A stretch of DNA of 64,000 bases, taken from contig JALJCO010008701.1 in assembly GCA_023101725.1 (NCBI GenBank), positions 62,001 to 126,000 of the forward strand, given 5' to 3'. The translations under genes were made by a program, and so were the position numbers. Positions 7,598-35,500 of this stretch are shown here, one piece after another. Position 1 is the stretch's first letter, and the number at the start of each line of letters is the position of its first letter. The notes under the pieces were generated by a model. It saw nothing but the letters and a program-made list of their open reading frames with translations, was not told where the DNA came from and searched no databases. Source of the stretch: Atherinomorus stipes (taxonomy: Eukaryota > Chordata > Actinopteri > Atheriniformes > Atherinidae).

Positions 7598-10500
7598 TTT
7601 ATTTTGTTTTCATTCTGATTGAGTCCAAACACACGCACACACAGCCATCTATTTATCCTCGTGTATAAATAGATGAATATACACAGATATACATAAATAC
7701 ACTTTTCTGATATGCATATTCATTTTGAAATCATGCTATGTCTCTGTAACGGACTCTTCCTATTGGATGAGGGCACACAGCAATTTGAAAACACAACACA
7801 GCTGAACATTTGGAAGAATCCCTACTGATCTGGATGTACAGTAAAATGCACAAATCTTTCAGTTCTTGGATGTCATACAAAGAAGCAGCTGGGGGAGTTT
7901 ACAGACCATAAATATACAGCAGCTGCATCTCAACAGACACACTGAAGATTATGGTACAGTAAATTATGTAGATTGCAATAAATTCTTGCTCAGCAGCAAA
8001 AATAAAACCAAATAAAAATAATATTCTCCGATTCAAATGGAAAATATATTTGTATATCTTTATATATGTATTTATAGATTTATGTACACATTCTCAGGAG
8101 CACAACTATGAGGAAGGAAAATAAATGCAACAACACAAGTGAAAAAAAAGAAGATACAAACAGACCCACATGTAAAATTTTCAATAAGGCGATTAAAATG
8201 AAGTCGAATGATAAGACTGTACAAAATATTGCTGCTATGGTCTTCATCTGATGAACAACAGCAAACTGATTACAACTGGCCACTGCACATCATGAGAACA
8301 AACTGATTTCTATTTTACAATGTCTGACATTGATGCGTCCTCTCCGTACACACACAAACACACACAGAGATGCACCAAAGAAAACAGAAGAGAGTTGCTC
8401 TGAAAATGCCTGTTTTAAGTCCTAAGATGTGCACCACAGAGAGAGAGACCACAGTAAACACTAACCGTACGATGACTGTGATTGACTGCACTGACACACG
8501 CTCACGCACAGTCCTAAAAGAAATATCTAAATATCAGCAGGTGTGAGCAGAAACTCTTATCTAAAGACTTAAAAATAGGATTTCCTGGATGATGTGATTT
8601 ATGTTTATTTGGCCTCTATCACTAGTTCATCTTCAGGTCCTCTTCAGAAGTGCAAACAACATTCAATCCATTCTCAAACTTCTGTGTTTGTCCATATATA
8701 CAGATAACGAGTACGATATTGACTGCAAATACTACAACTGATGGTCTACAACTACAAACATTTGAGCCGTCAGCTCCATGGATTTTTTTTTTTTTCTGGG
8801 AGGAGGGCAACTGGATAGAAAATGTCACTGGTATCTTTAATGTATCTAAAAAAAAATCATTCCCCAGAAAGTTTGATTTTGTGTGCATCTGTCCGAAAAA
8901 CGAGCAACACTGGAAGACATTGCAATGAATGGATTTACTGTAATGACAATGTCTGCGGCCTTAGTGTTGTAATCGATGCCTTTATGTTTTGAAGGAAAGA
9001 GTTGAATCCTCAGCAGTTTTCCACACGTAGTGATGCTGCATTCACATGACAAACTAGAAACTAGTTTGGACTAAATAAAAAAAGCTGTGAGGAAATCATC
9101 AAATCAAAAATGAAAAGTTCTTTGGATGCATATAAAAAAATGAAGCTTTTCAAAGTGAAAAAGTACAGATAACAGCAAATTCCTTTAAATTAAGTACAAA
9201 CAAATACATTTTCAGTTGTAAAACAGCGGAAAAAAATGATCAAATAAAAATGTAGCAAAAACACTGAAGTTATAAATAACTATATCGTAAATTCAAGAAC
9301 CTCAAAATATTTTCACTAAAGCTTAGTGTTTAATTTCTTTCCCTTATAAGCTAAACTGCATATTTTTAATTCTATAGATGTGTGGATGACCGATATGTCC
9401 ATATGATCGGTTTTGACTGACTTGATGATGGTTTTCGATGAAAATGCTGTTCTGTGAGCACAGGCAGAGCCGTCCGGCTTTTCTCACCGAAAGCCTTGAA
9501 ATCTGCAGGCGCTCCGCTGCAGCACGCAGAGGCAGCACCACCGAGTTAATGCAAATTTCCACTGAGCCGTGATGTGCGAGTAGTTGCTTTAAGGTTCAGG
9601 AAGTCCCGCTAATCCGATATCCTCAGGAAGTTGCAGTTGGGTGGATAGGAAACTAGCTGGTTCACTTGGAAACATCCAAACACAGTTAAATTTCTGTCAT
9701 GTAACCAATCAATCTGTAGCTTAAAGGTATTCTCAGGCATTATTGATTGAAAATGTTCTGATTGAGTGTTTACAGGAGTATTGATAGTTATTATAGTCGC
9801 ATATTTGACTATGTATGACCAGAAACCTTGTTAAAAAGGATTTGTTTGATGCTTTTACCTGGTTTTCTAGTAAATCTTTTAAACTGGGCGATGAAATTGA
9901 CTAATACTCTACAGGCTGTGGAGGTTTGCTTGCGTTTGATCTGGAGCAGAAAGAAAATATTGTTGAACTGCTGGCTCAAAAAGAAATTGCCTTTCCATGA
10001 CACAACTCTGGTCTTGGGCTGGCTGACAACAAACATAGGAGGCTTGTAAACCAGACAAATGCAGCATTTCTGAGAAGATGGTATGAAATCTTGAATCTGT
10101 ATCTGAGCTGAAACCATGGCGACATGGGCATGTGCGCTACACCGGGAATACAAAAGATCTTCCTGATTTGGTTGTCAAACTGGACCTGTGGTTGAAATGC
10201 TTTCAATTTCTCCTTGTAAATTATTTCTGTGATGTAAATTCAAATGACAGGCGCTGCAATTTTTCACTTCGATGAGCAAACTGTAATCTGATTTGAATTT
10301 GATGTCACAAGTTAACCTTCAAACACCAGTAACCCAGCAGAAAAGGCGGGGAAGAAGGCAGCTAATCGATGTGAACAAAACAGATTCTATGAGTGAAGTT
10401 CTCCTGTGTTTCTATATGAAATAACATTGAGGATTATCACGACAACAAGCTGAAACCACCAGAGCCAGCAGCCTCTCGCTTCACCCTGCACATTCAGTGA

Positions 10501-10871
10501 GAAAGCCGGTCGGAGAGCTGCGCTCGTGTGCAACAGAACATACGGGAAGTTATCACGGTGTTCATGTATGTCAAACACATACGACTACAGCCTTATACAG
10601 ACTATGTCACACATACACATACATATTTAGTAAATTGATATAATAAATTTCATCTGTCAGGGGTGAAAGGCAGGGATGGTTGGAAATCAGTGATGTCATC
10701 ACTGTCAGGATTTCTCCCCACTTTAGTGCTCAAGTCACTGTTTCCTCTCAGAATATTTCCATATGCATGTTTAAAATCCTGGTTCAGACATGGCTCCCAC
10801 CGAGGTCTGGACGTCAGACTGATGAGTCCTCTCCGCTGAGGCGTTCACTCGTCTCTGCCAGAGAACCGGCT
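7598..10871 (-). other. pip5k1c: pip5k1c 3' UTR
   Basis: Follows the stop codon at 10,872-10,874 in the terminal exon. A minus-strand AATAAA (complement of 7,598-7,603) is a suitable distal polyadenylation signal, giving a UTR of about 3.3 kb, similar in scale to the mammalian gene. Another AATAAA complement near 8,604 could give a shorter form. Open frames in this stretch are chance. Confidence 0.5.
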
Positions 10872-10874
10872 TTA
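10872..10874 (-). CDS. pip5k1c: pip5k1c terminal exon: stop codon at the exon's first base
   Basis: An acceptor with a pyrimidine-rich lead (GTCTGTCTTCCGCAG) is followed at once by TAA. With phase 0 entry from exon sixteen, cassette A or cassette B, the protein ends at the last upstream codon (TDIYF, CGP or RET). This matches mammalian isoforms that end at DIYF or at DGESDT. Confidence 0.78.
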   Translation of the reverse strand, partial: 

Positions 10875-13800
10875 CTGCGGAAGACAGACGCAACAAATTA
10901 GTGTGCACACACGAGTGTGAACAGATCTATCTCTGGATGTAAAAATCTGATCTGAGACAGCAAATCAAAATGAATTTATAAAAGAGAAAGGAGACAGGAG
11001 GATAGGACAGTCAGCGCAGGCAGAACATTTTATAAACAAAGCAACCACCCAAAAAGGTCCTTAACATTGAGCTGTGTCCTGCAGGTTGAAAGGATGGCAG
11101 TTTTTTTTTTTTTTTTACATGGCATGCAGTTAGTGCTCTTTATAGGCTGCATAAATCTGACTGAAGCAAATTTCAGGTCTGCTTTTATCAAATCCTGATA
11201 TAATAAACATTTTTTTGCAATATCAAAGATCAGGTAATGTTCTGGCTGCAGAGCTTTAATCAAAATCAGTGTATTTTTTGTAGCTCATTGTTGTCTTATA
11301 TTGTAACCCAGGTGTTCAACATCACCCCAAACTCTTGTTTCTCTTGTATGTCCACAGTCTGGAATACTTTCTAATGGATAAAAACGGAGGCACTCAACGG
11401 CAACCGCAGATGTGATTTTGCTTGTTTCATATAAACTTCTTAACAAAAAAATGTTGGGAAATGTTTTGGTTGATTATATTTCCCTTCACACTCAAACATA
11501 GAGGTACCAATTTGTACTTAAAAGGGAATAAAGCTTGTTGCTGGGGGTGTTCCTTTTTGAAAGACATTTCTGTACCCTTCAGTCCCAGTCCATTTTTGTA
11601 CCTTATCAAGCTGTATGAGTTAATAAAGTACAATTAAAGCAATTAAAAATGATTAATAAAAGTCAATAAAATAGAGATTATGACAACAATCAAAGATGCT
11701 AATAATAAATGAATAATATTTATATAAATATTAGGCCAAACACATATATAATTATGCATATAATTATTACTATGATTTAATGAAAGTCATAATATAATAA
11801 CTATAATTATACTACTGTTTAGAAGGACTGCTATTTATAGATATTGTACAAGCTGTAGTGACTAAGTCACTCAGCTGGGTGAGGGGAGAGATTGTTTGTA
11901 ACGTGCTTCCCACAAAAGTCCTAGAGATTTACTTTCCTTTGGGTGATGTTCCCATTTATTTTCCTTTGCTGATTATTTAGCTGGCAGGTTACGTTGTAAC
12001 AAAATAAAAAAGAGTGCAAAAAACAAAGGAGTGAAAGCGGTAAAAAACTGTGCGCCCTCCCGCACCCAAGCCAATTAAAAGGACCCCGCATCACCTGTGA
12101 CTGCCATTTAGTGAACCTGGTGCCCCCCCCTTACTGCCACCTACTGTGATAAAACAAAACAAAAAATACAAGTGAAGAAAGAAACAAATGGCTCCAACAC
12201 AAGCTACGCACATTTTTCAATGCTGCAGGTACCCTTAGGGTTGAAATGGTACAAATGTGTACTTTATATTACTTTGGACCCTTTTTCATGGTATATAGGT
12301 ACACTTCTGGCCTCATAAAGATCAATATTGTATATTTGTATAAAATGTACCTCCAGGTACAGAAATGTTCCTGTCTTGTACCTCTATTTTTGAGTGTGTT
12401 TAGTAACACCAGCTGGTGTATTACAGACAGTTGGAAAGCCTGGTTAGTCACCTTTCCAATAAAGTTAAACTTTTAAGGATCATGCATTTGTGAGCTGAGC
12501 AACACAATCAGAGGTGGACAACTCAGGTACCATAAAGTTCAAATCCTGCCATGTTTTTGGATCTGCGTGGACATTCAGATCAGCTGTTTTCATTAACAGG
12601 CTCATCTACTTGGCAGATGAGTGTGCTAATTAAGTCCAACTGGTTTAGTGATTGTATTCCCTCCACTGTGTTAAAGTGGCCAACTTATGTAGTTTTTCTT
12701 CCCCTTATTACTGTGGGAAAGAGCAACCATCTCATCCACCGAGCAACTCAGAACAAGGAGAATAATGCAGGGGATTACCTACATGTTTAGCTGTGTTACT
12801 CATTCCACAGAACCACAATCTTTACAAGTTATCCCTCATTGTAAAGGTGACTAATCAGGCTTTCCAATAATGTGTAATACAGCACCAACTGGTATTAATA
12901 GAAAATAAAAATAAAAAATCTACCAAAATAATGTTTCCAAGCTTCTTTTAAGGAGTTAATTTAAGACTATCACATATTGTGTTTTTTTTAGCCTACAGAA
13001 GTACACAAAACAAAGTTTGGCCATCCATGAGTGTTTAGATAAAAAGATATTGATGGCACCCTATTAGAGCACGGCATACAGCGCAGTTTGGGGGAAAAGC
13101 TGCTACAGAGCTCAGAAAACAAGCAACCCTTTATGCATGACCTGATTAAAAACCTCAAAGAGAAAACAGTCACAGCCAAGAAGACATCATTTCCATCCCA
13201 ACTCTGCATGATTAAACGTCTAATTATCTAATCGGACAGATTTGTCAAACGGGCAGAAAATGTTACTTTAAAACTCAGCTTTTCATGTCCGTGTTCTGTA
13301 AAATCTTGTGAGGTTTGTTCTATGATCTCCAGCAGAGTGACATGCTGTATGGGCGGCTTCACTCAGCCAGTGGATGCATGTTTAACAGCTTCAACAGCTT
13401 GTTGTTGGACGCAGACATGGATGGTTTGTCATGACCCAAATGATCGTGCATGGAGTTGATGACCATTTTCACAAATTTATCAATGAAGAATGAGAGCTGT
13501 AATGTGGGGGCGGATTTCTTGAAAGAATAAAAAGGACCTGAGAAGCTTCATTGCAGAAGCTTCTCCCATGATGCAAGGTCACAACTCGTCCTCTCCATCC
13601 TCGTTTTGCCAGATGAGTGATCACCTCAGCTGATCTGATTCCTCATCTGAGGGAATTTTCTGTGCTTTATATTTTAGTCTGATGCTTCTCACTTACTGTC
13701 TCTCTTTCCCAATCCCCATCTGGCAGGGCCTTAGACTCTGAGCCATAGTGTAGCGGAGAGTACACCCAGGTCCTGTCCTCTGGAGGCTGTTTTTACACAC

Positions 13801-16800
13801 CCACCACAGCAGAGGGGGCCAGAGGGACAGAGGAAAGGCCAAAGGCACAGACACAAGCAGCAGGGGCAGGCAGGAGAGAAAGACACAAGAGATCACAGGA
13901 GAAAAGACAAGACAGGAAATGAAAATTAGGGATGCATAAAGGAGAAAATGTTTTTGAGACAAATCAGAAAGTGTGAACTTGACATGTTGAAAGTGCTCTG
14001 GAGGAATGCGTCAATCCTGGCTGTTAATGTTGGCAAATAACACGTAGACGTGTGAATGTGTAATTATCAACATAAGTCTTCTTCATGTCTGTTTTATCAC
14101 ATGTCTTTGTGGACTAGCTTTAAGAGCAAGTACACAGAGCAAGGGATGAGATGCTGCATCAGCCAAGCAGGGGAGCATGAGGAGTGAGAAGGAGATGGGA
14201 AAGCCAGGATGCCGAGAGAGTCAGACATAGAAAGCATCCTCGAGAGCAAAGCAAGGGAACAGGATGTTTGTTTTTTTTCCCCAACAAGCAAAGTGCTGTT
14301 TGCAGTACGAGAAGTCGCACCCAGTGTTGTCCAGGGTCTCTGAAAAGCCAGAGATAGCAGCTCTTTAAGCTAGAAAAGCAGCTGGCATGTTTGTGATGTT
14401 GAGTTCATGACACTCACACTTCAATAAATAAACGTGCAACTCTGCAGTGAACATGCTGGTGCAGAGTGTGAGTGTGGAAACACTTAAACCAGCGATTAAA
14501 CATTGTAGAGTCTTTACTATCACAAAAACATCAGCAGCGGGAAAAAAAAAACAAAAAACCACACAAATCAACAAGACAAGTCTAGTTCTTTTTCACCACT
14601 GTGGATCACAATAAAATAAGCAGGGTCAACCTAGCCTAACACCAGGACAGCCACACTGATGACTACTGGGGTCTAAGTCACCTCTCACTTACTGGCCCAC
14701 AGGATTTCCTCCTCTCTCGGAAGGGAGAGACCACCCAGGTCCTCCCATCAGGAAACTGACCGCAACACAAGTAGATGGCACATGGACAAACAAACAGAGA
14801 GGATGAGGGGAGGTAGAAAAGGACAGTGGAGCAAAAAGTAAAACAACACAATGAAAAAAAAAAAGGGTGCATGCTGAGGTGAAAATGGAAGATGGCTCTG
14901 AACCCCTGCAGCTGAGTCAGTGGTGACGGATAGATTCACAAGTTTGGCAGCCAATTTCTTTTTAGATGCTGCTTCCACTCACGCCACCACCATCTCACCA
15001 CTTTTATTATGACTCAGGAGGACATTCGCATGGATGAGACAATGCGGAGAAGATGAAGGGCATGATGGGAGTAAAGAAAGGGGGAAGGTGAAAATGACTT
15101 GAGAGCTGGAGTTAAACGGATAAAGATAAAAAAAAAGAAAGATAATGGCAAAAAGAAGTGAGGAGTAAGATGGTTAGTGCTCAGACACCTGTGACGTGGT
15201 CAGACCTGGTCTATAAGTCTCTTAAACTGCCAGTCCTAACAATGTAGGCTGCCCCTGACTGTCCTTGGACTGTCCAGCCCATTTGTGTTGGTCAGTTGCA
15301 ATTAAAATATAAAGCACTTTAAAATGAGCGACTTCTTAGCTCATGTTTATTAACGGATCAAAATGAGGAATTTTTGGGTGCAGGTCCAGATAAAAACTAC
15401 AATAAACGATGGTTTCAGATCTACATTTGCAGGACTCTTGTATTTGTCTCTGCAAACAGAACTGATGCAGACTATGTGTTTATTTGATGAGATGACAAGT
15501 GGTCACTTGAGATGCACATGAAGCACTGGTGTGAAGTGATGTTCCTAAAGTGTCCACTTGAGATTGGATCACTCAAGAGGCGAATGCACATCACGTACAA
15601 GCAGGGCCAGAGATCCTTTGATACCAACTGGATGCGCCTGCGGTTTGACTTTCAATTGATTGACACTGCAACCTTGTAAAAAGCAGTAACGGTGACGCAC
15701 GGAGAAAAATGACTGACTTGAGCTTTTAAGCTCTGTCTGATAAAACATTGCCACTGCTCTGTTATAGGATTTTATGTAGTTGAAAGGAGGCTGAGCGATA
15801 TAGCAGAAACTTGATTTAAGTGGAAAATCAGAGGGAAGAAGTGGTGATAATGAGGGTGCTAACAGAAAAAGTTATTAGCTAAAAGTTATTAGCTGGGTTT
15901 CCATTGCTGGTTCTGATTCATATTTAGATGATATGAATGAAACTGTGAAAATCATAAACCAGAGTTGCTTGAGGTTTTTCTTGTCCGTTCCAAAATAGAC
16001 TTAAAGATCATTTGGGAGAGAATAAAAGCGCATCACGAGCACCAACCTTGCAGTTTAATTTAAATTAATCAATGGAAAAGTGTTTGATTCACATTGTTTC
16101 AGATTTTCTTCATCTGACTGCTGAGCTCAAAGGATGAGAAGATCAGCTACCAAACTTTATAATATGTTGAAAATCCAGTTTAAATATCCCTCTCCATCCA
16201 TGTAAGACAGGGGTGTCCAGCTCCGGTCCTCGAGGGCCACAATCCTGCAGGTTTTCCATGTCTCCCTTCTCCAACTGACTCAAATTCATAGGCTTTTAGA
16301 TTCTTTTAATTTGAGTCAGCTGTGCTGGTGCAAGCAAGCATGGAAAACCATCAGGACAGCGGCCCTTGAGGACCGACTTTGGACACCACTGATGTAAGAG
16401 GTGTGGCTGTTGCAGCTCACTTTGGATTTTCAGCAGTGCATGAAAAGTCACTAAACGCCATCTTTCCCCTTGGCCAGTCCCCAGAAGCCACTTGCGGCCT
16501 CATTGCCTCCAGCATGTTTTCTGTGTAGTTACACTTCAGTGTCAGTGTCACTCTGCCTCACACAGCGCTACAAACCCCCCCACTGCTGCACACAATGGGA
16601 GTATCTCCTGCGTTTGAAGGATAAGCTGAAAGTCGGCCAGAATGAGGGAGTTGGATGAGGGGAGCTGTTAAATAACCGAGGACCTCAATGACTAACCTGC
16701 TGGTCATTCGGCTTTCTCATGACAGGGTGTTTTATTCCAGACAGAAGACACCCAGCTGGAGTACAGCCACGCGGGCACGTTCTTATCTAAAACCGGGACT

Positions 16801-19800
16801 GTTGGCTATACTCTTCGTCCTCCACCTGAAACTCATACATTCATTTATTGCGGAGCTTAGATCTGCCAACACAAACAGGGCCAGAGGTAGCACCTTGCTT
16901 TTAGTGGGGCAATCCAGGAGGCTGAACACATGCAAACTGCAAAAAAGCTCCAACTCTTCTTCAGACAGAATCCATCATGTGTGCCTTCTTCAGGACCCCA
17001 TCAGGACTGAACAGAAAATCAAGGTGCACATGCTTTTATCACAACCTAACAAAGAGTGAAAAAGCTGATTTTGGGAGCTATCCAGCATATGATGACTGAC
17101 CTGACCCTCACCTGCCTTCTGAAAATATGAAGCTGTTGCCACCAGTCTTAGCAAGGCAGTAAGACTGGATCACAGGTGTCAACTTATCTCTCAGCAAGAG
17201 TAGTTAATAGTTTTATTTCAAAACCATTTCCTTTAGTGAAATGCACCACACACTGCAAACAAGAACTGCACACACTTGTTCCCATACCAGCCTGGGCTTC
17301 CTCTCCTCGTCTCAGCGCCTCTGTTGGACGGCATCGCACAGCTCAGTCAATAATACACATATTGAACCAGAGAGTAAAGGTGTGATAATGTGGTGGATAA
17401 TAAAAATATTGAAAAACAAAAGGCAGTTAAGATGATTAAAGCTGCTGCTTTTGTGTGAACAGTCATGCATCTGGATGTGTGCTTCTGTTTCTTTTCTGCT
17501 CAGGGTTTTACTTACAAAGTAGATATCTGTGATTGGCACATCGTCTTCATCGTCTACTGAAGCCTGGCTGGTGCACCCTGACCCGGACACCTGGCTGGCC
17601 CTGTCTGCCTCCACCACCACCACTTTGGGACTGGAGGGGGCTTCTTCAGCCGGTCCTGGAGACGGGGGAGCGGCTGGGGCAGACGGGGAGGATGAGGCTG
17701 CTTCGGGTGGAGACAGGGAGACGGAGGACGCCCCCTCCTCTGAGCCTGCTGCTTCCTGAAGCCCACTGTGGGGAAAAAAAGAACGGGGGTTCAGAAAATG
17801 AATTTGAAAACTTGTTTTCAACAAAGTGTTTGCAAATAGGAACCATTAAATCATGCTGAATCATATAAGCTGAATTTATAAGCTAAATCAACACTAAGAT
17901 AACCAGATTCCTGTTGTCCATCCAGACCTTTCCCTTCCCTGTTATCTCACCTTACCTGATGTCTCTGCTGGTGTGTCCTTGTAGATTAAAGGAAAAAAGG
18001 AACAACCACACACTTGCAGACAGTTACTGACACTAAAAACACTCTTCTTTCGCAAGACAAAGGACAAAACCATCCCAGACTAAAATTTAACAATCATGAC
18101 AAAGTGTAAGTTTCTTTGCTTTAACGTGCTTGAGGCCCTATTTCAAAGATGTGCCAGCTGGACGAACACGGCCACAATCCTTTATTGTTCCTGGCCAGAT
18201 CATCAACTATTAGGGAGGATTTAAGTGCTTGTGCGTTGCTTTCTCAGCTCCTGTGTTTAAGCTGAGCTCCATAAGCGGACGAGTCTGGCAGCTGGCCAGT
18301 GAAGCAAAAAAGCGGACTTGGCATCTCAATGAGAAAAAAACGATTGGCTGAATAAATGAGAAGGACAGGATGGTGGTTGCCATGCAGAGAGATTGGCTTT
18401 CATATCACTCCAGTACACCCCTCCTTTGTTTTTCAATTTCATAAACACTTTTACTCTCATTTTCCCCAAGTCTGATTGTTTTTCTCTTTGTCTGCCTCCC
18501 ACTTTTACTCTTCATCTTCTCTTTTTATCTCTTCCCCTCCAATCGATCACCCCATTTCCCTTTTTTCCCCAGCTCATCTCTGTCTCCACACATTCATCCA
18601 GCCAGTTAGTCCATGCCTTCCTCCCCGCCAGCCTCTTGCACACCCTCAGGCCATATGTCTAGCCACTGCCCTCTCAGCATCAAACCAGATTATTCAGTTG
18701 GTTTCCCTCGACAATCACACCAAAATCCTCTCTGATGTAACCCATGAGCAAACGGGAACTTTGCCCTCATGTCTGGTATCGTTTGGAGTCTTGCTCTCTG
18801 TGTGATTTAGCTGTTAGAGACAACAAAATGCCCAAACCAGTGCATGTGTAATTAAAAACCAGGTTAAAATTGTGTAAAGTTTTATGGGAGCAGCCTCAGG
18901 TCTGCAGGCTTCCTGGCCTACTGCCCTATTTCTGCAGGCTTGCCCCCCCCCAATCAAATTTGTTGGCCCACTGTCTGCTTCACATGCAACAAATGCACCC
19001 ACGACACAAATTTACATGCATGTGTGCACCTCTCCCATAACCCAATTACTGCAGCACCTGCAGCTTTTTTTGTCCATAACAATGGACTCTTGAGAACAAT
19101 AAACAAATGGGTTAAGCTGCTTTCAACTCTGTGTGTGTGTGTGTGTGAGTATATGAGTGCGAGAAAAGTGTACTAATCCAACAGCTGTCTGAAACCAGGT
19201 GAGACACTGGCAGCAGATTATTTATAGTGCCAGTCAATCGGAGTCACAAACTGGAGATGATTGGGGTCATGGAGGCTCTGCAACTTTTCCATCCTGTATC
19301 AGGGTCAGACATTATAATGTTGCTTCTTTTAGATTTTATAGCAAGGGCAGAGAGTGTGTATGTGTAGTGCAGACAAAGTGCATTTATCATCCACACCACC
19401 CATCCAGAAAAGGTCATTACCTGGATTCAAATAGGCAAAAGGGTAAAATACTCTCATTGGATAATTATAGCATTGATTATGTTTCAGCAGGCAAAAAGTT
19501 ATTTAACCCAGACTTATTAGGTGGGTAGCTTCTAATTTCTTAATTTCTGGAGCAAAAAAAACATATCTAAAGAGATGCTGAAACTGTTACAGCTGGGTTA
19601 AGAACTGTCCAATGCATCATTACAAACTGGAAGGCTAGTGGGGAATCATCTTCCAGTAAGAAATGTGGCTGGAAAAAAATCCTGAATTATTATGATTGGT
19701 GTTCACTTAACATTTGGTGAAATCAAATTGAAGGAAAACAACAGTAGAACTCCGGAATATGTTTAATAGTGAAAGTAAGCACATTTGCACACACACAATG

Positions 19801-22800
19801 TGAAGAGAACTCAAGGGATTGGGACTAAACAGCTGTGTAGCCATAAGAAAACCACTCATCAGTGAGGCTAATTGGAAAAAAGGCTTCAATTTGCAAGGAG
19901 CATAAAGACTGGACTCTAGAGGAACGGAAGGTTATGTGGTCTGATGAGTCCAGATTTATCCTGCTCCAGAGTGACGGGAGCATCAGGGTAAGACGAGAGG
20001 CGGAAGAATCCATCACATTCTATTCCCTACTGTACAAGTCTATGGGGGAAGTCTATGATCTGAGTTCAGGAACATTTTGGGCCCATACACTAAAAACACC
20101 TGGGTCAAACTGGTGGGTTAAAATAGGACCAACTAATTCCTGGGTTATTTCAACCCAAACATTTGGATTCTTGTTTTTTGACCCAACTTTTGGCTTAATA
20201 ACCCAACATTGTAGTCAACATAACCAAACTTCTGGGTCAAATACTGAACCCGAAAGTTGGGTAAAAAAAAAAAAAAAAACCAATTTTCTGGGTCAAAGTA
20301 ACCCAGAAATTAGTTGGTCCCTTTTAACACACTATGGGTTATTTTTGACCCAGGGGTTTTTAGTGTGCAAAGAAGAGGTCAGCTGATACCTGAATACTCA
20401 GTGACCAGGTTATTCCATCAATGGATATTTTCCTCCCTGATGGCACAGACTTATTCCAAGATGACAATGCCAGGATTCATGGGGCTCAGACTTATAAAGA
20501 GTCATTCAGGAAGCATGAGACATCATTTACATCGATTGGCCACCAGAGTCCAGATCTGAATGATGTGCTGGAGAAGGCTTTGTGTAGTGGTCGGACTCTC
20601 CCAACATCAATACATAATCTGGGTGAGAAATTTACTGTATGTAACACTGGATGGAAATAAATCTTGTGACACTGCAGAAGCTTATAGAAACAATGCCACA
20701 GCGAATGCTGCCTTTATCAAAGCTAAAGGCATTCCAACCAAATATCATGTTGCGGATTATTAGTGTAGTTTCCCATATTTTCTCACTATGAAAACTGAAA
20801 GTAATATTGGTTATATTCTTGTTTTTCTCCATCTGTGATTCTCAGGCTACGTTCACATGGCGACGATCAGAAGAGAAGACGCAAAAGTGGCGTCTCATCT
20901 TCATCTTTATATCCGCGTTCACACGAGCATCGTCATAAAGAAATCCGCATGCATATAAGGACGCAAGTGTGTATGGAATTTGATTGGGTATGCACGCCAG
21001 GCCTTTAGGTGGTGCTGTGACAGAACTCCACAGTGTCCGCACGCATGCGTGCAATCGTTTGTCTCCGTTCGCTTCAAAATCAAAACAACTATGGCAGCGG
21101 TGTGGAGGAACTTTGTGTGGACAGATGAGGAGGTAGAATGACTTCTCCAAACGACACTCGATTACAAGCTCGCAACGTGGAGATCCGCTGGGCCTCCGTA
21201 GTCCGACATTGTTGTTTTTCCTGTGTTGTGTGACGTCACGCGCATGCGACATGAGCACGGGGTCAGCAGGTCTGTGGGTGGGTCCACCATCATTTCTGCG
21301 TTTTGGACCATGCAGACGAGGGCGCAACAGCATTGCGTCCTCAGGAATTCCACTTAGGAATGAGTCTTCAGATTTTTGCGTCTTCAACCCAGAATAACGC
21401 CGTTGCCATGTGAACGAAAGGCACTTCTGATGAAATATTTTGCCGTTTTTACCTGCAATTGTCCTCGTGTGAACGACCCCTCAGTCTGGTTTGGGTTTTC
21501 TTTACTGTATCTCAACTTTTGACGTGATAAAAAAAAAAAAAAAAACTGAAGAAGATATAATCACACTTGGAGTACCTGGTTTCAGTTGATGGCTGCGGAC
21601 CAGAGATGGTGGGTTCACTGTCATGTCTCTTCAGCTCCACCTCCACTGTGATGGTCTGCTGATCCTCCTCGCGCACACGCATCTCGTCCTGGGTCCTAAA
21701 TGCAACCACATATGAAAAAACTCATGAAGACAAAATAAAACATCCAAAAACACACACATAGCAACAGGGCAAAAAAAAAAAAAAAAAGGGCTCACTCACA
21801 AACACACTGACTTCATATTTTTCTTAGCTCTCCACCCACCACACCCACAGACATAATGCTGAGAAAACATGGAGGCCTCAGAAGTCTGTAAAACCATCTG
21901 AGCATATGCTGCTTAAACTGGGTTTATTATTCAGCTCACCTTCCGTCATGGCTGAGAGACTGGGTGTGTCTCCTGTAGACAGAGAAAACACTGAGTACAA
22001 GCTGTGAATGAAAACTACAGTAGCTGCTAACATAACACCGCTGACACCACAAGGTCGATGATAAAATGTGACAGGAAAGAACTTGAAATAATAATAAATC
22101 TAAATCCAGAACCCAGCTGAACGTCAGAATAAAGAGGAAAATAAAAATATAAACAATTGATTTCCTGGGATAATCTAACATAAATGCTATGCTGTTGGGT
22201 GTGTTGCAGATTTTTTAAACCAGCTGAAAGAAGTTGATGAACTCCTTCATTATTAACCGTAGATGAATCTGCCAGCGTGTTCGGGGTTATGATAGTTGCC
22301 TTTTTTAGTATCTTTTCAAATCTTCAATCTTCAACACGGAGTTAAGAATGTTAGGATATTCTTTTGATGGGACGGGATTGGCTAAAGATGTGGTGATGTC
22401 GGTGATGAGTCTGTGTTGCCCATAGCGACTGTAAGGTCATTCAACCTGGGAATAATATGACAAGTGTACGTTTCCTAATTGAAGACAAAATCCAGATGTT
22501 GGTGTGCTTTAGTATTTTGTCTTTTTTTTTTTCAGTGCTTACTGTAAGTGTGTGAGTCAGTACCTGTAGCGGGGATGCTCGGCTGTGTCTGAGGGAGATC
22601 GCTCTGGGATCGACAAGGAGGTGGTGGAGGAGAGGGTGGTGGCAATTGATGCTGTGGTAGCCTCCTCAAACGACGGAGGAGTACATGGAAGGAGATCCGG
22701 TCGTCCTGATAGGAGGAGACAGAAGTTATTGCTTCTTTTTGGGGGGGGAGCTTGTGTCTGTCAGCTTACTCTCGTTTTTATTTTTGTTGGCATTTCATTC

Positions 22801-25800
22801 GTTTCTTCTCACAGACTGTTCTGCTTGTGTCGCCTCTACTTTCCCACAACTACAAATTAGTGGTTTGACAGTGACTGCTTGCAGCGACTTTATTTGTTTA
22901 TAAATGTCTGCAATTTTCTCTCTCTCTTCCTTTTAAATCTGATCTGAGCTGCGTGAGCTGCAATGCAACAGCTCACTAAATGATGATTTCTGGTTCTGTC
23001 TGATCTGCCTACGCTGTGTATTTACCCTCATCTTCCAGTGTTGGGAAGCTGCGAGCTCCTCTCAGGTCATAGATGTTCTCGTCTCTCTCAGAGGCTAGCT
23101 GGCTGGCTGACCAGGCTGCACCAGGTCCAGCACACTTAGGCACCGTCAATGACACACGACCCTTCTTGGATGGAGAGGATTTCAACGCTAAAGGAGAATG
23201 AATAGAGACATAATGAATGTAAGATATCTGGAAGTTACAACACTAATGCTATATTTCATAGTAACAAGTAGGGATGTATGATATTATCTGCCTACCGATG
23301 TTATTGGCTGATATCAGCATTAAAATGAGATATCAGAAAATATCGGTATCAGATTTATCGGACCGATATTTTTACTAACTAAATCTCACAAGATCTCGCT
23401 GTTCCATTCTGAAATCTGGCGAGATCTTGTTCTATTAGCACTGGTCCAGCATGTAGAAAAGTCGTTATTGTGGAAGAACTTCATATCCCAGCATTCCTTT
23501 TAAGAGTCATGTGACTACGGTGCAGCTGCTGCTGTGACAGACTGACTTGCTTTGAAGCTGCTTATGTCTGGTTTTAAGTTGTTGATTAATTTACAAAGTT
23601 GTCAGAAACATTAGAATTAGCCCCATGTTGGCTAATACCTGCTAGTATCTGATATCTGGCAGCCAGATGTCCAAAATTAACTCCTCTGGGTGAGTTAACG
23701 GTATTTTGGGATCTTTGCTCTTGGAGCAGAGTATAGTTGTATTTCTCTAAATATGAGAGATAAAACCTCACATTGTCTGCATATATCGGTAGATATCGGA
23801 TATCAGAAATTTAGAGTTGAACAATATTGAATATCGGTAAAGAAGACAATATTGAACATCCATAGTAACAAGTCATGAAAAAAATGGATCAAATCATAAT
23901 TTTAAAGGGTCATTTTGCTGAAATCTAAACAACATATTAACTCTCCTTCATCACTGTGTGAGAAAAACTACAAAAAAAAAAAAAAAAAAAGTCAAGCAGA
24001 TCAAAGAGAGATTTTTTTCTTCCTCTCACATGGCATTAAGCAGCACCAAATAAGGCTTTTAGCTTCAGTATCTGATTTTCCGATCAAGGCTTGGGAGTAA
24101 ATGAGACAGAAGCCTGGCATCTGCCATTTGTGGCTCTGCCTGGTTCATCCCACACAGCCCTGTCAGACTATGTAAGGCAGTGTCTGGATGGAAAGTGAAC
24201 TCACAGGAGCTCTTCTTAAAAACCGTGCTGCTCATGAACTTGAAGAATCTATCGGCATAGAAACCTGGCCGGTGGACTGACACAGTGTCCTGAGGGAGAG
24301 ACAGAGAGATTAATGAGACAAATGGTGCATGAATGAAATGATCAAACTGGTGCTTACGATAGATTAAACTCTCTATTTGTCCCTTTAGCGTCCCATTTCT
24401 GTAATTCTTTTCTCTGGGTCAAACAGCACTGCTGAGCATCGCATACACATGCTGCAGCAGACACACAGAAACACCATCACACGAGGCCACAGACACTTCG
24501 CTTCATTATTTATGTATCAGCAGACTTAGATAACGGTGCCAGCAGACTGACAGATGACACTTGGTGTTTGGTTTAAAGGGACAGAGGACATGAGGAGGAC
24601 CTGGGAAATAAAGAGACAGCATCCCAATTTCTAGCTTTTGCCGAGGCGTCACATTACTCAATATGAGCAACATTTTTTTATACATTCATAAACTGTGAGT
24701 AATCTACAAAGGGTGTTCACTACAGTCAGCAACACTGATGCACAAGAGTGTTTGCTGTCCTACACATTTCTCACGAATGAGAGCATTTCAGAGTGGGGAG
24801 AAAGCAGTGAGTAAGAAAAGAACTGATGCTGCCAATTCTATCTTGAGAGCAGACTTGTGATGATGTGCAGCTTCAACTCCTCAGGGGATAAAAAGACAGG
24901 AGCGGCTTCAGAAGTGAGGAATCAGGCAGAGTATAGAGAATAAAGGGGAAAAAAACATGATTACAAAACTCCCATTGGTGCTCAATTCAATCTATTCTCT
25001 GGTTAAATTAGATTGTAGCATCAATTATGATGGTACCACAGAAAATATGTACAAATAAAGTCATAAAAGAGCCTTTTTGTTACTGTTTTTCTGACATCTC
25101 AAAATAGTCTTAGATACTTTTACTAAATGTGGAGGAAAGTTGTGTTTGGTTGATCATTTTTCCTTTTTGATGAAACCAATTATGGTGCTGTATTATACAT
25201 TGTTGGAAAGCCTGACCAGTTACCTTTACAATGTGGTTTAACTTATAAGGATTGTGTTTCTGTGAAATGAGCAACACCGCTAAACATGCGAGTATTGCCC
25301 CCAAAACTGGTCAAAATCCCTTGCAATACTCTCCTGTTGGTATTTACTGCCAGGTGTGTGTCAATTACAGATGTATGACTGGCACATGATTGACAGGCAG
25401 ACATATTGGAATGAGATTCAGGAGCCAGCAGCCATCCCATTACTCCAGATTCTGGGTTTCAACTCCATCCTGATGACAAAAATCTCCACCACAAAGTCAA
25501 GATCATCACGGACTCCAGAAATTGGGAGTGGAGGAGATGGACTGACCTGCTGTGAGTAGCTATGCTTCAACCCAACTGTACTCTTGTGGGACCAGCTTGG
25601 ACATGCTGTGTATGCCAGAGTGATCAACACAACCCTTCCACAACTTCTGGTTGAGGAATGGGATGCCATCCCACAGCGAAATGTCACCAATCTGGTGACT
25701 AGCGCGAGGCTAAATGAATAAAGTGAAAAATGGCTAATATGTGTTAGGGCTGGCCGATATGGACCAAACATCATATCGCAATGTATTCGTTTTAAATGGG

Positions 25801-26559
25801 GATATACAATATATACCGGTATTTTTACCCTAATTTGTCTGAATGTTTCATTTCATATTAAGCACCTGTTTTTTTTACATGTTTAGCTTAAAGGTATAGC
25901 TTCACTTCAATGATGGAATTGACAAAACACTGGTTAGAAAGTTTAAAAAAAAAGAAAAGGGGGAGGGAAGGGACGGGGAAAAAGGGGGGGAAGAAGAGAA
26001 AACGAGGAAAACCAAAGGCAGGCCGTTAAATCGAAATAATTCAAAATAGTTGGCTGGTCAATTATGATTTCTTTGTAGAGGGCTTTGGGAGGATTGTCTT
26101 CCAGAAGAGATAGTTTAAGTGATCTGGTGACACCTTTGTTGTCAGTCGAGGAGAAGCCGGGTTATTACTAAAAAATAAAACAAAAACATATGCACAACTA
26201 ATATCGCGATATAATGGTATATTAGGGGTACGCAAAGCAACCTGTATTTGTATCTGTGTTTGTATTTGTCGAGGGGGGATAAGTATTTGTATTTGAGTGA
26301 TTTTTTTTTTTTTTTTTTTTGCATTACACTTCTAATTTACGTCAAGCTTTGCTTTAAATGAAGCTAATAGGTGGTTGAAACAGACTTGCAGAGGCAGAAC
26401 ATGTCTGTGATGATGAATTGGTGCTGGTGTGAATTCAAAATAATAAAAGAAATTATGAAAATAACACTTTGAATTGCCCTGTAAATGGTGGGATCTCAAA
26501 GTGCTAAACTTTCAAGGGCCAACTTGTCATTTGGGGGTGCTAGAATGAAGACCAGGGAT

Positions 26560-26594
<35 letters not shown>

Positions 26595-29500
26595 ACCACC
26601 ACCACCACACCCTGTGCTGAAACAGAAACATGGTAACATGGCATCTTATGTAGCGACCAGTAGCCAATAATATTCTCATATTAATTCATACATTTAATTT
26701 CAAACTAGGCTGAGACTGCATGAACAAGGTTAAAGAGCATGTGTTCATGCATCTGTAACAGTTAACCTCCCTATTACTGAACGAGCTATAACTCAATCAT
26801 TTCATCATCATGTGACAGCTGAACGCTGTGAAGTCACGTCACATTTCCAAACTTCATCATGGAATAATTTCACATAAATGACTGAAATGAGTTGATTAAA
26901 AAATCCACTGATGACAGAAAAAATTCCTGATGAAACCGTTTCATTAGGTGGAGTTGTGCTGAAGTTCAGATTTGAGGGAACTGGTGACATTATTAAAACC
27001 TACACGTTTTCCGACATGCGCTCTGTGCGGCGCTGCTGGAGCGCACAGCTGAGGATGCACGTGTGCGCGTTTAAAGAACCACACACTTTATTTAATTTTA
27101 TGGCAATTTTTTTTTTTACATAGTGTAACGGGGTCCACTCAGGCTGGACTTTGCTCTCGTGGCCAGCAGACAGAGGTCAGTCTGATGGTTTGGGGGGGTC
27201 CCTCTTGGCTCTTGGTGCCTTAGGTCTACGAGCAGTGCGTAATGCGCGTGGTGAGAGCGACAGCACTGTACGCAAGCTTTGTTTTAATCTCTTTAACCAA
27301 ACGTTAACGTTACTCTGTTAACAGCCTGTTGTCTAAATGACAAACTGACAGAGCTACGTAAACGGAGTGAACATGAGAGACCCGACTGTAGACGTCAATA
27401 ATCTCCCGATCAAACTCCCAAACAGACAACAGGTTCAGTCTTTCGCTTAGCCAGCTTTCTCTGGAGCAGCCTGTCACACTCCTCCTGAACGTCACTCACT
27501 CATCCGGGCGCACTGCAGTCTCATGAGAAGATCCAGCTTTTTGATGTTATGTTTTTCTTCTTCTATTTTTAAAAATATTTGTTTGAAATAAGTATTCGTA
27601 AAAATCACATTATTTGTGCCATTCTGAATACCATATTCGGATTCGGCTCCCCCCTATGGTATATGTAAATATGATATCTCCTTCATGTAAATATCATACC
27701 GGTATATCGTCCAGCCGTAATATCTGTTGCTTTTTCCTTGTTACTGTGGGAGACTTATTGGACTTAAATTATCTATCTGCTAGGCAACTAATAAAATGAG
27801 TCTTTACTGCCAGAAGAATATTTCTGGAGATTTTGGCACATTTTTCTTTTTTTTTCTTTTTTTAGCTGTGTTGCTCATGCTTCAAAAGCATGATGTATAC
27901 AAATTATACCTTGTTGTAAAAGGACTAATCAGGCTGTCCAAAGATGCATAAAACAACATTAGCTGGTATTATTGAAGAAGAGAACTACTGCACCAAGTTC
28001 TTCAAGCACTGTGGTAAAGGTATGTTTTATTTCAATTTATTGCTTTTACAATAATTGTATTGATACTGTTAGTTAATTTCTTTCCTATTGTTAATATTAG
28101 GCATCTCTGTGGTGACATGTGTCTGACATAGGCGGTTTTAATTGGAAACAAACTGAAAAAAAAAAAAAGGTCTGTGCCTCTGCCAGCCTTGTGTTGGGAA
28201 TCGGTATCTCTCCAAGCCAGTAAATATTGACTGAACCAGGTTTCCAAGAGAACCGGACCTGCCAGCACACAATGTAAAAACACTGTAGGCTGGTGGCAGC
28301 TGTCAGTCTTCATGGCTCTAATATCTTTTTACAGACCCACACTTAAATGAAAACAACCATGGCCTCTTTATAATTAAATGTTTGCAAGGCATTAATTATT
28401 TAAGGCCCACATGCAGCATGTTTCAAATAAGCAACAGGGTTTCTTGGAAACCACTTCAATTTTCTCATTCAAAGGGAAATTTTTTCATTAAAATAGGTAA
28501 ACGTTAACAAGACAAAACAGCCTGAGGTAAAAACTCCCTTTCAAAAAGCAACGTATGACTCATTACGTTTATTTATTTCAGTAAAGCTCAGACATTCATG
28601 ACAATAACAGAAAAATGAGAGGATTAACTATTATGAAGTATGCAACAATACTTAAATATTACCACTATGAATACATTGTGGCTGTCAATCTGAATAGAAT
28701 TTACACTGACTTTAGTAATCCACAGCTCTTCCCTAAAGCTGCTTTCTAATAAGCTTAAATCAACACACATAGATACAAATGCATCTCAATACATGACTAT
28801 ATGTCTGACAGGTTGGGAGAAAAGGAAATTGGCAGCTTTGTGTTGTATATATATGATTTACTGAAGCAAGAAAAAGAGCAAGAGTCACAGGTGAGATTTC
28901 ACAGGTAACTCTTTTCCAAACCATCAACATTTGCTGGGCTTAAAGTTGGTCAAATTTCCACCACCTGAAGAGCTGTGTGTTGTTTAAAGAGCTACAAAAC
29001 TCACCCCGTCATGAACCAAAGCCTTCCACGTGTGCTCCAGTTTCTTGATTAGCCTGCAGAAACAAAAAGTTTACATGATGCTGAGCAGGTCTCATACACT
29101 GAAAACACATCATGTTTTCAGTGTAAGCTGAGGGCTGCAAATGTGCTGCCTAGGGATGAAGTCCAAGAACAAAAGCACACGGAGCTGCAGGAGGATGCTA
29201 CATGATGTACTCATTGTTTTAACTTCCAAATCAAGGCTGTTTCACACCGTCTGATGATGACTTGTGTGATTATCACCTGTAGGACTGCAAGATGTCGATG
29301 ATTCCGATGTAGAGCAGGAGTCTTTCCCCTTTGCCATTAACAGCTGGAATCCCGCCCATCCTGGAAGAAGGAAAGTAAGACTTAAAGTAAGAATATTACC
29401 ATGTTTGCACATGCAGACTCTGTATTATTAACTAAATTATTTTGTTCTTTCTTACATCAAGTGTAGTCCAACTTCTTGTTAGAAATCTAAAGTTAAGAAT

Positions 29501-32500
29501 ATTTTATCATCTGATCATACTGACTGTTTACAGTCTGAGCCCTGACAATAAACTACTGTCTGCTTTACACACAAGTTTGACCTGAAAGTTATTTGAAAGT
29601 GAAGAAGCGTGCCTCAAAAGAATCTTTTAAAAAAAATAGTTCATATGTCTTCTTAAATTTTCTTACACAAGTTTGTGCCTTTTTTGGTATTGTTTATGTA
29701 TATGGCTAACTCCACCACTTGAACGCCACTACCCTGCAGGTTTTAGATGTTTTTCTGTTTTATTTTTTTGTTTGTTTGTTTTTTTGGTGCAGAGCTTGGA
29801 TCCATTCCCTACTCTAAGAGGAAAATACAAGCTGAAATCTGTGTAGTTGTTACCAGTAAAAGTTTTTTTTTAAAAAAAGAAGAAGTTACGATTCAGAGTA
29901 GTTTAAAACATTTATTTTGGGGGGGGAGTAGGGGTTGGGAGTCATCATCAATATGTGTGTATGTGTGTCTTTGTGCTATATACTTGGATGTGTGAAGGCT
30001 TGTTTTTATTTTAATGTGCATTTGTTTTTATTATGTCAGGCACTTTGTGATGCTTTTTAATGGCATGAAAAGTGCTTTATAAATAGTTTGATTTGATTTG
30101 AATTGATTTATTTACTGGGAAAAATCAATAGAATTTGTTCAAAAAGCAGATGAAGTTAAAGTTTTGAATGCCAATTGGATTTAAAAATGGCATGTTAAGT
30201 TTACATGGCTCCATCATGTACGCTAAAATCTGCTCAAACATTCAGCTGAGAAGAACATACATACAGAGGAACTGAAAAAGTGAAGGAAAAAAAGAGGCAT
30301 CCTAAACTATATACTTTTCATATATCGATGTAACAGGTGCAGAGAAAACAAAGGGACTTTATTTCTTAGTAGAAGATTTAATTAAGGAACTTTGTGGGGA
30401 AGTTGTGGCAGTAATACAAAAGGCTCTACTCATTCTTAGTGGTTTTGTGTTTGAGTATTGGATAAAAAACGGAAAACGGATTTATTTTAAGGTGCCGATA
30501 TGAAAAAGCATCAAATATAATGTGTTTTATTTGTGCTCATTTATTTCAAATGATTGAACAAGTTCAATCCTGTACCTCCTCTTTTACTGTATTATGGTAA
30601 ATCTGATACGCGGGCTCTCTATTCTTTACGCGTCACATTTATCACAGTGCTCCTCACGTGTCGTCAGTGTCGATGGACCCTCCGCAGGCGGCTCCCCCCT
30701 GGATGGACTCCATGGCAGTGGAGTACAAGGCCTTCTGCTGGGCCACAGGCCTCTTCTCGTCGCTGTCGCCCTGGGAGCCTTCCATCTGCCTCTCCCTCTC
30801 TGCCTGGTCCATGTTGTGGACCCCGAGCAGCAAGCTGTAGTCCATGATCTTGAAGCTTTCCAGCACCTGAGCACAGACCACATGCGGACAAAGAGAAATG
30901 TGAACTTGTTGATTGACATGCGATCTTTAAACCTTGCTGAAAGTTTCATTTCTTTAATCACTAAGAAAGAGAAAAGCTGAAGCTTTTACACCAAAATTGT
31001 GCTCAAGATGCACAATGAATACGAAATGCATCTGAAAACCAGAGTGTGCACACTTTCCTCCAAAGACAGGGCCAATAAATATAAACATGAGGCCGTGATT
31101 TACAGACCAGACACTCTGTTAAAAGTCTGGCTCGTAAAAAAAGTTCTAATTTATAGTGAGGAATCGGGGGGGATGCCAAACACTCTCTCAAACAGATTCT
31201 GCCTTCCCTTCCATTCCTGTCATCAATGAATCTTTGACCCCCACCCCATGTGTCCTCCTTCACAACTAGTAAACAACCCCAACCTCTCCTATGTCCCTAA
31301 CAAACTAGGCAGAGTCTTTGCAGCCATTTTTTTCTCACCAGGCAGTCTCTCTGTAGAGTCTTCACCAGTGCGTTGTAGGTGTCCTGGTCCAGCATCAGTC
31401 CATCCTGAATGTCTTGCATGAAGTCCAAATCTTTGAAGGTGGGCCTAGCCTTCTCCCTTTCCTTCTTGGATGCCCGCCTCTTGTAAGTGGAGCCTTTTAG
31501 GTCATATTTGAGGTGCATGCGAACCACGCGGGGCAGGACGTTGTTCATCACCACCACACGGATGTTCTTCCCGCCTGACTGGACGCAGTACAGACCGAAG
31601 AACTTGGGCAGCAAAGTGCGAGGGTTCTGATTCAAGTTCTGAAGAAGAAAAAGATGGAGGAAACCAAAAGGTCACAATTGGGTTTAGAGAAGTAAAGTTA
31701 AAGATAGACTTCATTTTACAAGGTAATGATTAAAATCTATAGTGTGGAAATGTGCCTTTTACAAGACAGTCAAAACAGCATAACCTGGAACGTCAGGGAG
31801 CGTCAGCTTACTGTATAGTGATCAAACATTTATGAGCTATAGGATCAGTGGTGCTTGTTACGCAAACGGTTGCGTGACAAACAAGATGCAACTGTGAGTG
31901 AAAACACTTGGTCTACAGTTAAACTTCTACCACCTGATCACATTGGGAAGCCTTATGTAACAGAGGGAACTCAAGTCAACATTTACCCCACAGCGATACA
32001 GTATATGTGATACATGGAAACAGCAGAGCTCAGTCTGAGGTCATACTGCTGTATAGTCAGAGCACAGGGAAGCCCAAGTACATACAGACCAAAATGAAAA
32101 AGGAATGCAATCAAAAGTATATAAGCCAAGTTTTAACTATTCAATTTGAAATATGAGGCTAAAATTAAACCTAAAACCTTCTCCTTGCATCATAGTCTCT
32201 TCGTTCAGGGATGTGAGGAGAGGGAACAAAGACAGTTGTAAAGAAAGAGGAGAATATAAAGATATTTTACTAAAAATGGACATTTTTCACTTCATAACCA
32301 GTATTTTATCCAAAATCAATTTTATGTGATGAGTGATATGGCTCTTTCTACCCTTCTGCAGAACGTTATTATTTCTGTCAGATGAGCACTTAAGAGATTA
32401 TACTTACATTTACTTCAATTTACAAAGTGGGATTAACATGTCACATCCCCTCGAGATGTTACAGAAACCTAAAAGACTTCTGCAGAGGATGCAGCCATGT

Positions 32501-35500
32501 GTCTTGCTACATGAGGAGTTAATCAGATTTAATCTACGTTTTATAAACTGTGCAACATCCAGATTTAGTGAGATTATAGCAAACCAGATCTTTCATTCCC
32601 AGAATAGAGGATGCCACACAATTACACAGTTCTATAGGCTGTTATTAGTGAATCTGTCACTGTATTATTATGACAAAGACACTAAAATAAAGACAAATAT
32701 GAATAATTCCTTTACCTTATTAATCCCAAATGGCACTCTGGTGGACTGAACTCAAATTACTCCAGACCCAAGTCCACCTCTGTAACAAGTGGGCAACCAC
32801 TACCCCTTTGGTGTGAAATCATTGTGATTGCATAATAATAAGCCAATAAATAAAATAATTGATAATGTGAATGTTATGTGTAGTGTATGCTAATTAGGGA
32901 TGTTCGATATTGGCTTTTTTACCGATATCCGATATTGTCCAACTCTTAATTTCCAATATCCAATATCAGCTGATACCAATCTGCCCAGAGAACTGTGAGG
33001 TTGTATCTATCATATTTTGAGAAATACAACTATATTCTGCTACGAGAGCAAAGATCCCAAAATAGCCTTAACTCAGCCAGAGGAGTTCATTCTGGACATC
33101 TGGCTGCCAGATATCAGATACTAGCAGGTATTAGCCAACATGTGGCCAATTGTAATGTTTCTGACAACTTTGTAACTTAACCAACAACTTAAAACCAGAC
33201 ATATAAGCAAGTCAGTCTGTAGCAGCAGCAGCAGCACCGTAGTCACATGACTCTAAAAGGAATGCTGGGATATGAAGTTCTTCCAGAATATCGGGGACTT
33301 TTCTACATGTTGGACTGGTGCTAATGGAGCAAGATGACGAGTGACGAAATCTTGTGAGATCTTGTTGCTCCGTTATGATATCTCACGAGATTTCATCAGA
33401 AAAATATATCGGTCCGAAAAAAAAGTTTATATCTCACATTTTAATGCAGATATAAGCCAATAATATGAGACATCTATAACGTAAATGTACTGTATATCCT
33501 ATTCGGGAACAAATCCTAATAAATCCTAATAAAATATAGCAAGAGGTTCATTTTTCCTTTTATCTGTTTAGTAACCACAATAGAACCATAGGCTCCAGCA
33601 ACCCTGAAATGGACTACGTGATACAGAAAATGAATGAATGAATGAATGAGTGAGTGAATGAATGTTGGCTTTGCCATGGCTGCCAGGATTGTTTTGGCTA
33701 AACTAGATGCAATAGTGGCATCTGTCGATTAGCTGGTTAATTAAAAGAAAAAAGAAGAGGGGATAGGAGAGGATTAACATTAAGACAAACTTTGTCTGGA
33801 TTTTGGAAGAACAAGGAGGCCTAGTTGAGACTGAATGGCATCAATATGTGTAGCTTGATTTTATTTGTTCATTTCATCTTATTCTGTTTTGGGTTTTTAA
33901 ATTGCAATTTGTAATGCCCTGAAATTAAATGGGAAAATAATATCAGAGCAGGGTGCAACAGTGATGCTTTATAGAAAAGGAAAATTTAAAATACCTCCAA
34001 ATTACCACTGATGAACAACTTAGAAACCAGCTGTCTTCCATACAAGGTTCTCTTCTCCTGCCTCCAATCTGCTCTGAATATTTCAGTAGTCAATCCAAAT
34101 AAATGAGGTTAGTCGGGCTGGGTGCTCAGAGAAAACCTGCTTTGACCTTGGGAACCGGGCCAACCGAGTCCCATTAGAGAAATGAGGCCAGCGAGAGAAA
34201 GCGATAGTGCAAGCCCTCAAAGTGGAAACGCACAGAATTCAGAAGTGGAAATGGCAAAGAGGAGAAAAAAAGATATGCAGACAGAGGGGTGATAAAGGAT
34301 GAATGTGGAAGTGTGGCCAAGAGGGCTCAGCATTCAATGAATGACCTTTGCTGCATGGGAGAAACCGGTAGAGGAAGTGGCATGAAAGAGGGAGACCGAA
34401 CACACACAGAGAAAGAGCGTCCTCCGCCCTCAACCACACACGACCCTTCTGTTGATGCTAAGAGGGCAGAGCAGTGACGAGCCAACAACACTGACACGTG
34501 AGGAGGAGGAGAGGTAGCAGAGGGATGAACAAAATGTGAGCAAGGGAGAAAAGCAGTAGAGAGGATGGATTAAGCATGAGGATGGAATTAGAGATAAAGG
34601 AAAAAATAATTAGTTATAGCAAAGAGACTGAGAGGCTTTATACGAAGGGGGATAGAAGAAAGAAGCGTGTAATATGAGGGCAAATACAAAGGGAGAGAAG
34701 TGGAAGCAGGGAGTCAGTTACATCACTGCGATCAGCATGCTGCCCAGAGCCAGACGCCTCAGCCAGTCAGCTGTGGAAGACATGTGGAGCTCCAACGGCA
34801 GCCTACATTATGTGTTTGCTGCAAATACAAATGAGTTTGGAGCATTAAAACAACAGTTTGCAGTTTTTATGGTTTTCTGAGTCGCTATGAACGTGAGTAT
34901 GTAAAGCAGTTTTCCTCAGTCCGGCTGCTGTCGCCACGGGCAACAGCTTCTCTATGTGAGCCTGAATGTCTGCACTTTCATTACACCACTTCTTTAACAC
35001 CAATTATACCTGCAAAAGTGCTGCAGAGCACAACCAAGAGTATGGAAAGGTCACAGTAAATGTGCTGAGTCTTTAACATCCCTCAATGATTAACCCCTTG
35101 TGAGGTGTTCAGGTCTATTGGATCCATTATTAACATTTACTGAGAGAGAGAGAGAGAGAGAGAGAGAGGGAAGGGGGGGGGGACTAATTTGCCCTCCTTC
35201 ACATTTTGAATCTACCATATACCTGAGCCTGTGAGTGTGTGTTTGCAGCACCTTCCTCAGGCTGAACCCTAAGCTTATTCCCATCGCCTGCAACCCCATC
35301 CAATCATGTTGCTCCTCCAGACCCCAAACAGAGAGTAGCAAAACAATCACATACAGTAAGGGCTAGATGAGTTCCTGCAGGGGTCTTTGCCCGCGGCTGT
35401 CGGCATATAAATAAACACAAGGCCGAGGGGCCGTGAACCTGAGAGGCTGGAGGAGCAGCATGGACATACATGGAGCTGTTGCTGGCTGATTTCAGTCAGA

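Follow-up and report, generated by a model that had tools for sequence, protein, structure and literature searches.

How many C-terminal tails can a fish pip5k1c gene produce by splicing alone, and do these tails correspond to those known from mammals? We addressed this question in a 64,000-nucleotide stretch of the Atherinomorus stipes genome (contig JALJCO010008701.1, positions 62,001 to 126,000; hereafter, the window), for which a preliminary description had claimed two alternative cassettes followed by a last exon whose first codon is a stop. In our reading, to which we assign a probability of about 0.94, the tail of this gene is the fish counterpart, by orthology, of the C-terminal splice module already described for PIP5K1C. 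Two phase-neutral exons, tandem duplicates of each other, would each be included or skipped, with all combinations in frame and ending on the TAA of the shared last exon.

The pip5k1c gene and the layout of its tail

The gene on the minus strand of the window is pip5k1c, the fish orthologue of PIP5K1C. The catalytic exons were located with PIP5K stretches as queries, and 12 exons (38250 to 17516), with matching phases and GT-AG ends, join into 601 codons without a stop; one further stretch, ending TYKK, lies just upstream of these, at about 38363 on the same strand. The assembled protein matches the Pfam PIP5K domain (PF01504; E = 6.3e-101), and its best match among solved structures is that of PIP5K type I alpha, 4tz7 (E = 9.6e-185, compared to about 1e-50 for type II), the two matches together marking a type I catalytic domain; a 27-residue stretch and, further on, TDIYF mark the tail as gamma-type. 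Among the matches listed, the 14 top-scoring relatives fetched are 91 to 95% identical to the protein, with two models of the silverside Odontesthes ranking highest. The kinase exons are also matched by the kinase part of a camel PIP5K1C-cactin fusion model (P0239), with 92% identity in the GRPDLL exon. The cactin half of the same model, used as a query for a neighbouring cactin gene, gave a match at 52153-51983 (33% identity, E = 0.026), which was discounted as weak.

Table 1. Features of pip5k1c in the window (positions are those of the window)
Feature	Positions	Strand	Basis
Catalytic part, 11 upstream coding exons with the PIP5K domain	21576..38250	-	joined reading, domain match
Last constitutive coding exon assembled, 3' phase 0, ends TDIYF	17516..17765	-	tail matches camel PIP5K1C model P0239
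Candidate cassette C, 33 nt, between TDIYF and A, reads RR then stop (low confidence)	17288..17320	-	Kryptolebias model P0134
Cassette A, 63 nt, 21 residues, phase 0-0; counterpart of the mammalian i3/i5/i6 insert	14693..14755	-	sequence, fish and mammal records
Continuation past the A donor in frame, VSER before a stop; i5-like tail absent	14681..14692	-	sequence
Cassette B, 90 nt, 30 residues, phase 0-0, with WVYSPLHY; corresponds to the i2/i3 tail of mammals	13697..13786	-	sequence, fish records
Continuation past the B donor in frame, VSEKHQTKI before a stop	13670..13696	-	same 9 residues end Etheostoma P0054
Second donors 4 nt past the A and B donors, within GTAAGTGAGA	exon ends 14689, 13693	-	splice score
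Last exon, TAA at first position (10874); 10500 is the end of the reading, not an exon boundary	10500..10874	-	sequence

The coordinates, lengths and phases given in the preliminary description for the TDIYF exon, the two cassettes and the TAA are all correct (Table 1). The TDIYF exon closes with ACA GAT ATC TAC TTT, followed by gtaagt, and cttccgcag directly precedes the TAA. The four joins (neither cassette, A, B, and A plus B) stay in frame and reproduce the ends claimed for them, namely, TDIYF, CGP, RET and RET. The first ATTAAA signals on the minus strand past the start of the last exon are found at 9370 and 9334. Disorder would be expected in the tail of the protein.

To look for comparable segments in the 6.6 kb that separate TDIYF from the TAA, 397 AG and 389 GT dinucleotides were scored with a splice matrix; the acceptor and the donor each had to score no lower than the weaker site of its kind in the two cassettes, which for acceptors (-2.2) is a lax bar. 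Only three open phase 0-0 segments of 45 to 150 nt pass, namely, A, B and 16786-16697. The layout formed by A and B exceeds the chance expectation.

Tails in mammals and in other fish

This arrangement is already known from rats, mice and humans, and the layout is real but ordinary. Xia, Irvine and Giudici (2011; PMC3176900) describe, for rodents and humans, v1 with neither cassette, v2 with B, v3 with A and B, and v6 with A only, v3 being brain-rich and v6 widespread, and report that the last exon of mammalian PIP5K1C begins with the stop codon. The tails with neither cassette, A, B, and A plus B in A. stipes correspond to v1, v6, v2 and v3, respectively, and the fish gene shares with these variants the position of A before B, the phase neutrality of both cassettes, the four products and the stop that opens the last exon. 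The cassettes differ in size, with 26 residues each in rodents, according to that article, and 21 and 30 residues, respectively, in A. stipes. The consequence of an unused A donor differs as well: the human A exon is described there as having a GTAAGT donor 78 nt in and, when this donor is unused, continuing into the long i5 tail, whereas in A. stipes a stop follows after 4 codons. No paper on tail splicing of fish pip5k1c was found among the titles and abstracts listed by the literature searches, which is not proof of absence.

Protein searches fetched 240 records (the first search contributed the best 120 of 278 matches), most of which, judging by their names, are predicted models. One of them, the Sarotherodon PIP5K1C-like protein P0003, bears the source name 'dehydrogenase/reductase SDR family member 7C'. 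Tail classes were counted in P0001-P0138 (fish where named), and P0139-P0240 made up the mammal set. Among the matches listed, the former group consists of 69 records with B only, 30 with A plus B, 7 with A only, 10 with donor read-through (9 B and 1 A plus B), 3 with a frame opened by a donor 4 nt downstream (2 B and 1 A plus B), 2 with another insert before B, 2 with A plus other sequence and 15 others; these counts are not frequencies because the records are clustered, the searches were keyed to the tail, and the matches are those listed. The mammal set, which comes from a search keyed to A, includes 56 records with A plus B, 37 with A plus other sequence or read-through, 3 with A plus B and read-through, 3 with A only and 3 left over. 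None of the 240 records fetched ends at TDIYF, as the i1 form does, the searches having scored the tail and so disfavoured this form. The proposed conservation of the layout from fish to mammals holds for spiny-rayed fish, represented by A plus B, B and A models, and mammals; gar and zebrafish are outside the records compared.

The claim that all tails end on the TAA stands for the four joins. Other tails occur in fish models, through read-through of the B donor, the downstream donor frame or other inserts, and the TAA is therefore not the sole end. VSE[KM]HxT is present in 8 of the 10 fish read-through records (by eye, among the matches listed), and 6 of these 8 stop after nine residues; the corresponding VSEKHQTKI in the window could be either a genuine tail or simply the conserved beginning of an intron. 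As for cassette C, the stretch 17530-17315 can be aligned with P0134, a Kryptolebias model (E = 1.7e-13), and short inserts occur at the same place in the cichlid records P0135-P0138, Kryptolebias P0133 and Cololabis P0036, although these are not alignable to the window. The Kryptolebias models and, less surely, those of cichlids and Cololabis suggest a small extra exon near 17320. For the inserts present in Odontesthes P0033 and in Cololabis P0036, the window gave no convincing match, among the matches listed for part of the search.

Origin and binding residues of the cassettes

Judging from their sequences, A and B arose by tandem duplication and align in register. The best DNA match between them covers 18 of 20 nt at an equal offset from the exon start in both; its score was reached by none of 5000 shuffles of A and none of 622 other segments taken from the same 6.6 kb, and the protein score was reached by 1 of 5000 protein shuffles. 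Over residues 1-13, compared using one hand-picked form per cassette per lineage, fish A and fish B share 7 residues and mammal A and mammal B share 8, the same cassette shares 7 (A) or 9 (B) between fish and mammals, and the two crosses share 6 each. P2, T6 and V8 are common to fish A and fish B, and F1 and G4 to fish A and mammal A. One old duplication followed by some exchange between the copies would fit these few sites.

The WVYSPLHY of B is identical in PDB 2h7d, an integrin-PIPK chimera that we take to be a peptide bound to talin. This identity supports the talin-binding role attributed to B in the preliminary description, as does the binding of i2 to talin and AP-2 given in PMC12886786. 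WVYSPLHY is shared between A. stipes B and the PIPKI-gamma i2 tail, but the rest of the tail differs, the C-terminal end being DWERET in A. stipes B as opposed to DGESDT in most mammal records fetched.

The resemblance of A to a mammalian variant tail, also proposed at the outset, is borne out by F-x-D-G-R-x-W-x-x-S-P, which is shared with the mammalian i3/i5/i6 insert. In common with the human PIPKI-gamma i3/i5 insert, A. stipes A has the place after TDIYF, the F-x-D-G-R-x-W start, the SP and basic residues; it differs by T in place of Y646, V instead of Y at the ninth position, and F, not R, H or C, after SP. According to PMC12886786, the human A insert binds septins via Y646 and W647 (so the main text; the letters are swapped in one figure legend), and tagged i5 did not pull down talin. 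At the positions of this pair, A. stipes has T and W. At the sixth position, 39 of the 41 fish A records among the matches listed (17 distinct 15-mers) carry T, one carries S, one carries A and none carries Y, compared to Y in 98 and H in 1 of the 99 mammalian A records. All 41 fish records among the matches listed have V at the ninth position, where all 99 mammalian ones have Y, and at the twelfth position fish, among the matches listed, have F, L or V and mammals R, H or C; G4 and W7 were demanded by the pattern that selected the A records. In livebearers (P0026, P0027, P0028, P0031 and P0032), A reads LPNGSTWVVVPF and similar, and R5 and S10 are lost.

YxxPhi is a sorting motif that B keeps as YSPL. 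A lacks it in either lineage because the ninth residue is V in fish and the twelfth is R, H or C in mammals. The motif is missing by opposite changes, with VSP or VVP followed by F, L or V (no Y) in fish, and YSP followed by R, H or C (no hydrophobic residue) in mammals. We propose tentatively, at somewhat less than even odds, that A took on different partners in fish and in mammals; given that fish A has no septin-binding Y and may keep talin-like contacts, recruitment of septins by A would belong to the mammalian lineage. This fish-mammal difference in the binding residues of A is a new comparative point.

Choice among tails and rival readings

Under the preferred reading, A. stipes would splice all four tails, with B bringing the kinase both to talin and to the clathrin adaptor and A yielding a tail with other partners. 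The acceptor scores obtained with the splice matrix are -2.2 for B (the lowest of 16 scored), 5.8 for A (middling) and 7.1 for the last exon, and the donors of both cassettes are GTAAGT. These scores fit regulated inclusion with skipping as the default, whereby weak cassette acceptors would be set against a stronger terminal acceptor and inclusion would be tissue-regulated. Rbfox, Nova, PTB, QKI and MBNL motifs around the cassettes were listed without a chance control, so no inference was drawn from them.

Three other readings of the locus deserve consideration. Some transcripts might escape the TAA via the donor located 4 nt downstream within GTAAGTGAGA, adding a 35-residue tail after A or B. 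The window contains this second donor at both cassettes (score of 5.9 at each, compared to 7.1 and 6.9 for the main donors), and its use would open 33 whole codons in the last exon (10874-10774, minus strand); such a tail is found in three fish models, Caranx P0011, Scomber P0039 and Menidia P0049, two of which, however, are labelled only 'hypothetical' or 'unnamed'. The identities of this frame to the three models are 21/33, 15/21 and 22/33, but a competing frame reaches 14/19 in both P0087 and P0125, which gives no sign of a coding constraint peculiar to this frame; with the rival frame equally similar, coding in the +4 frame is not demonstrated and the conservation could be due to chance, so we consider an escape of this kind unlikely. 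Somewhat less likely still is that in spiny-rayed fish A is a duplicate undergoing decay and is spliced in as noise, with only B being of consequence. By eye, A is more variable than B, has drifted in livebearers (P0026-P0028, P0031, P0032) and is absent from 97 of the 138 records among the matches listed, a poor measure in view of clustering and search bias; nevertheless, V8, V9 and P11 are invariant in 41 of 41 fish A records among the matches listed (as are G4 and W7, albeit required by the pattern), the frame and splice sites of A are kept, and fish have both A plus B and A-only models.

The preliminary description further held that splicing of the cassettes chooses between adhesion (B) and endosomes (A), which we find very unlikely. 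PMC12886786 places human i5, an A-containing variant, on endosomes. However, i5 exceeds i1 by 67 residues (707 versus 640), of which A accounts for 26, so that about 41 come from read-through; in A. stipes, the frame after A reads VSER followed by a stop, and no i5-like tail can therefore arise in this manner. Moreover, mammalian i6, with A alone, is described in PMC3176900 as residing, like i2, chiefly at the plasma membrane of COS cells. With endosomes tied to i5, the early stop after A and i6 at the plasma membrane, a switch between adhesion and endosomes is unsupported here.

The general picture is unchanged by these observations: under the orthologue reading, the tail-splicing module of mammals is now seen in a spiny-rayed fish as well. 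The natural variants of A in fish could be used to test which residues of the insert bind septins.
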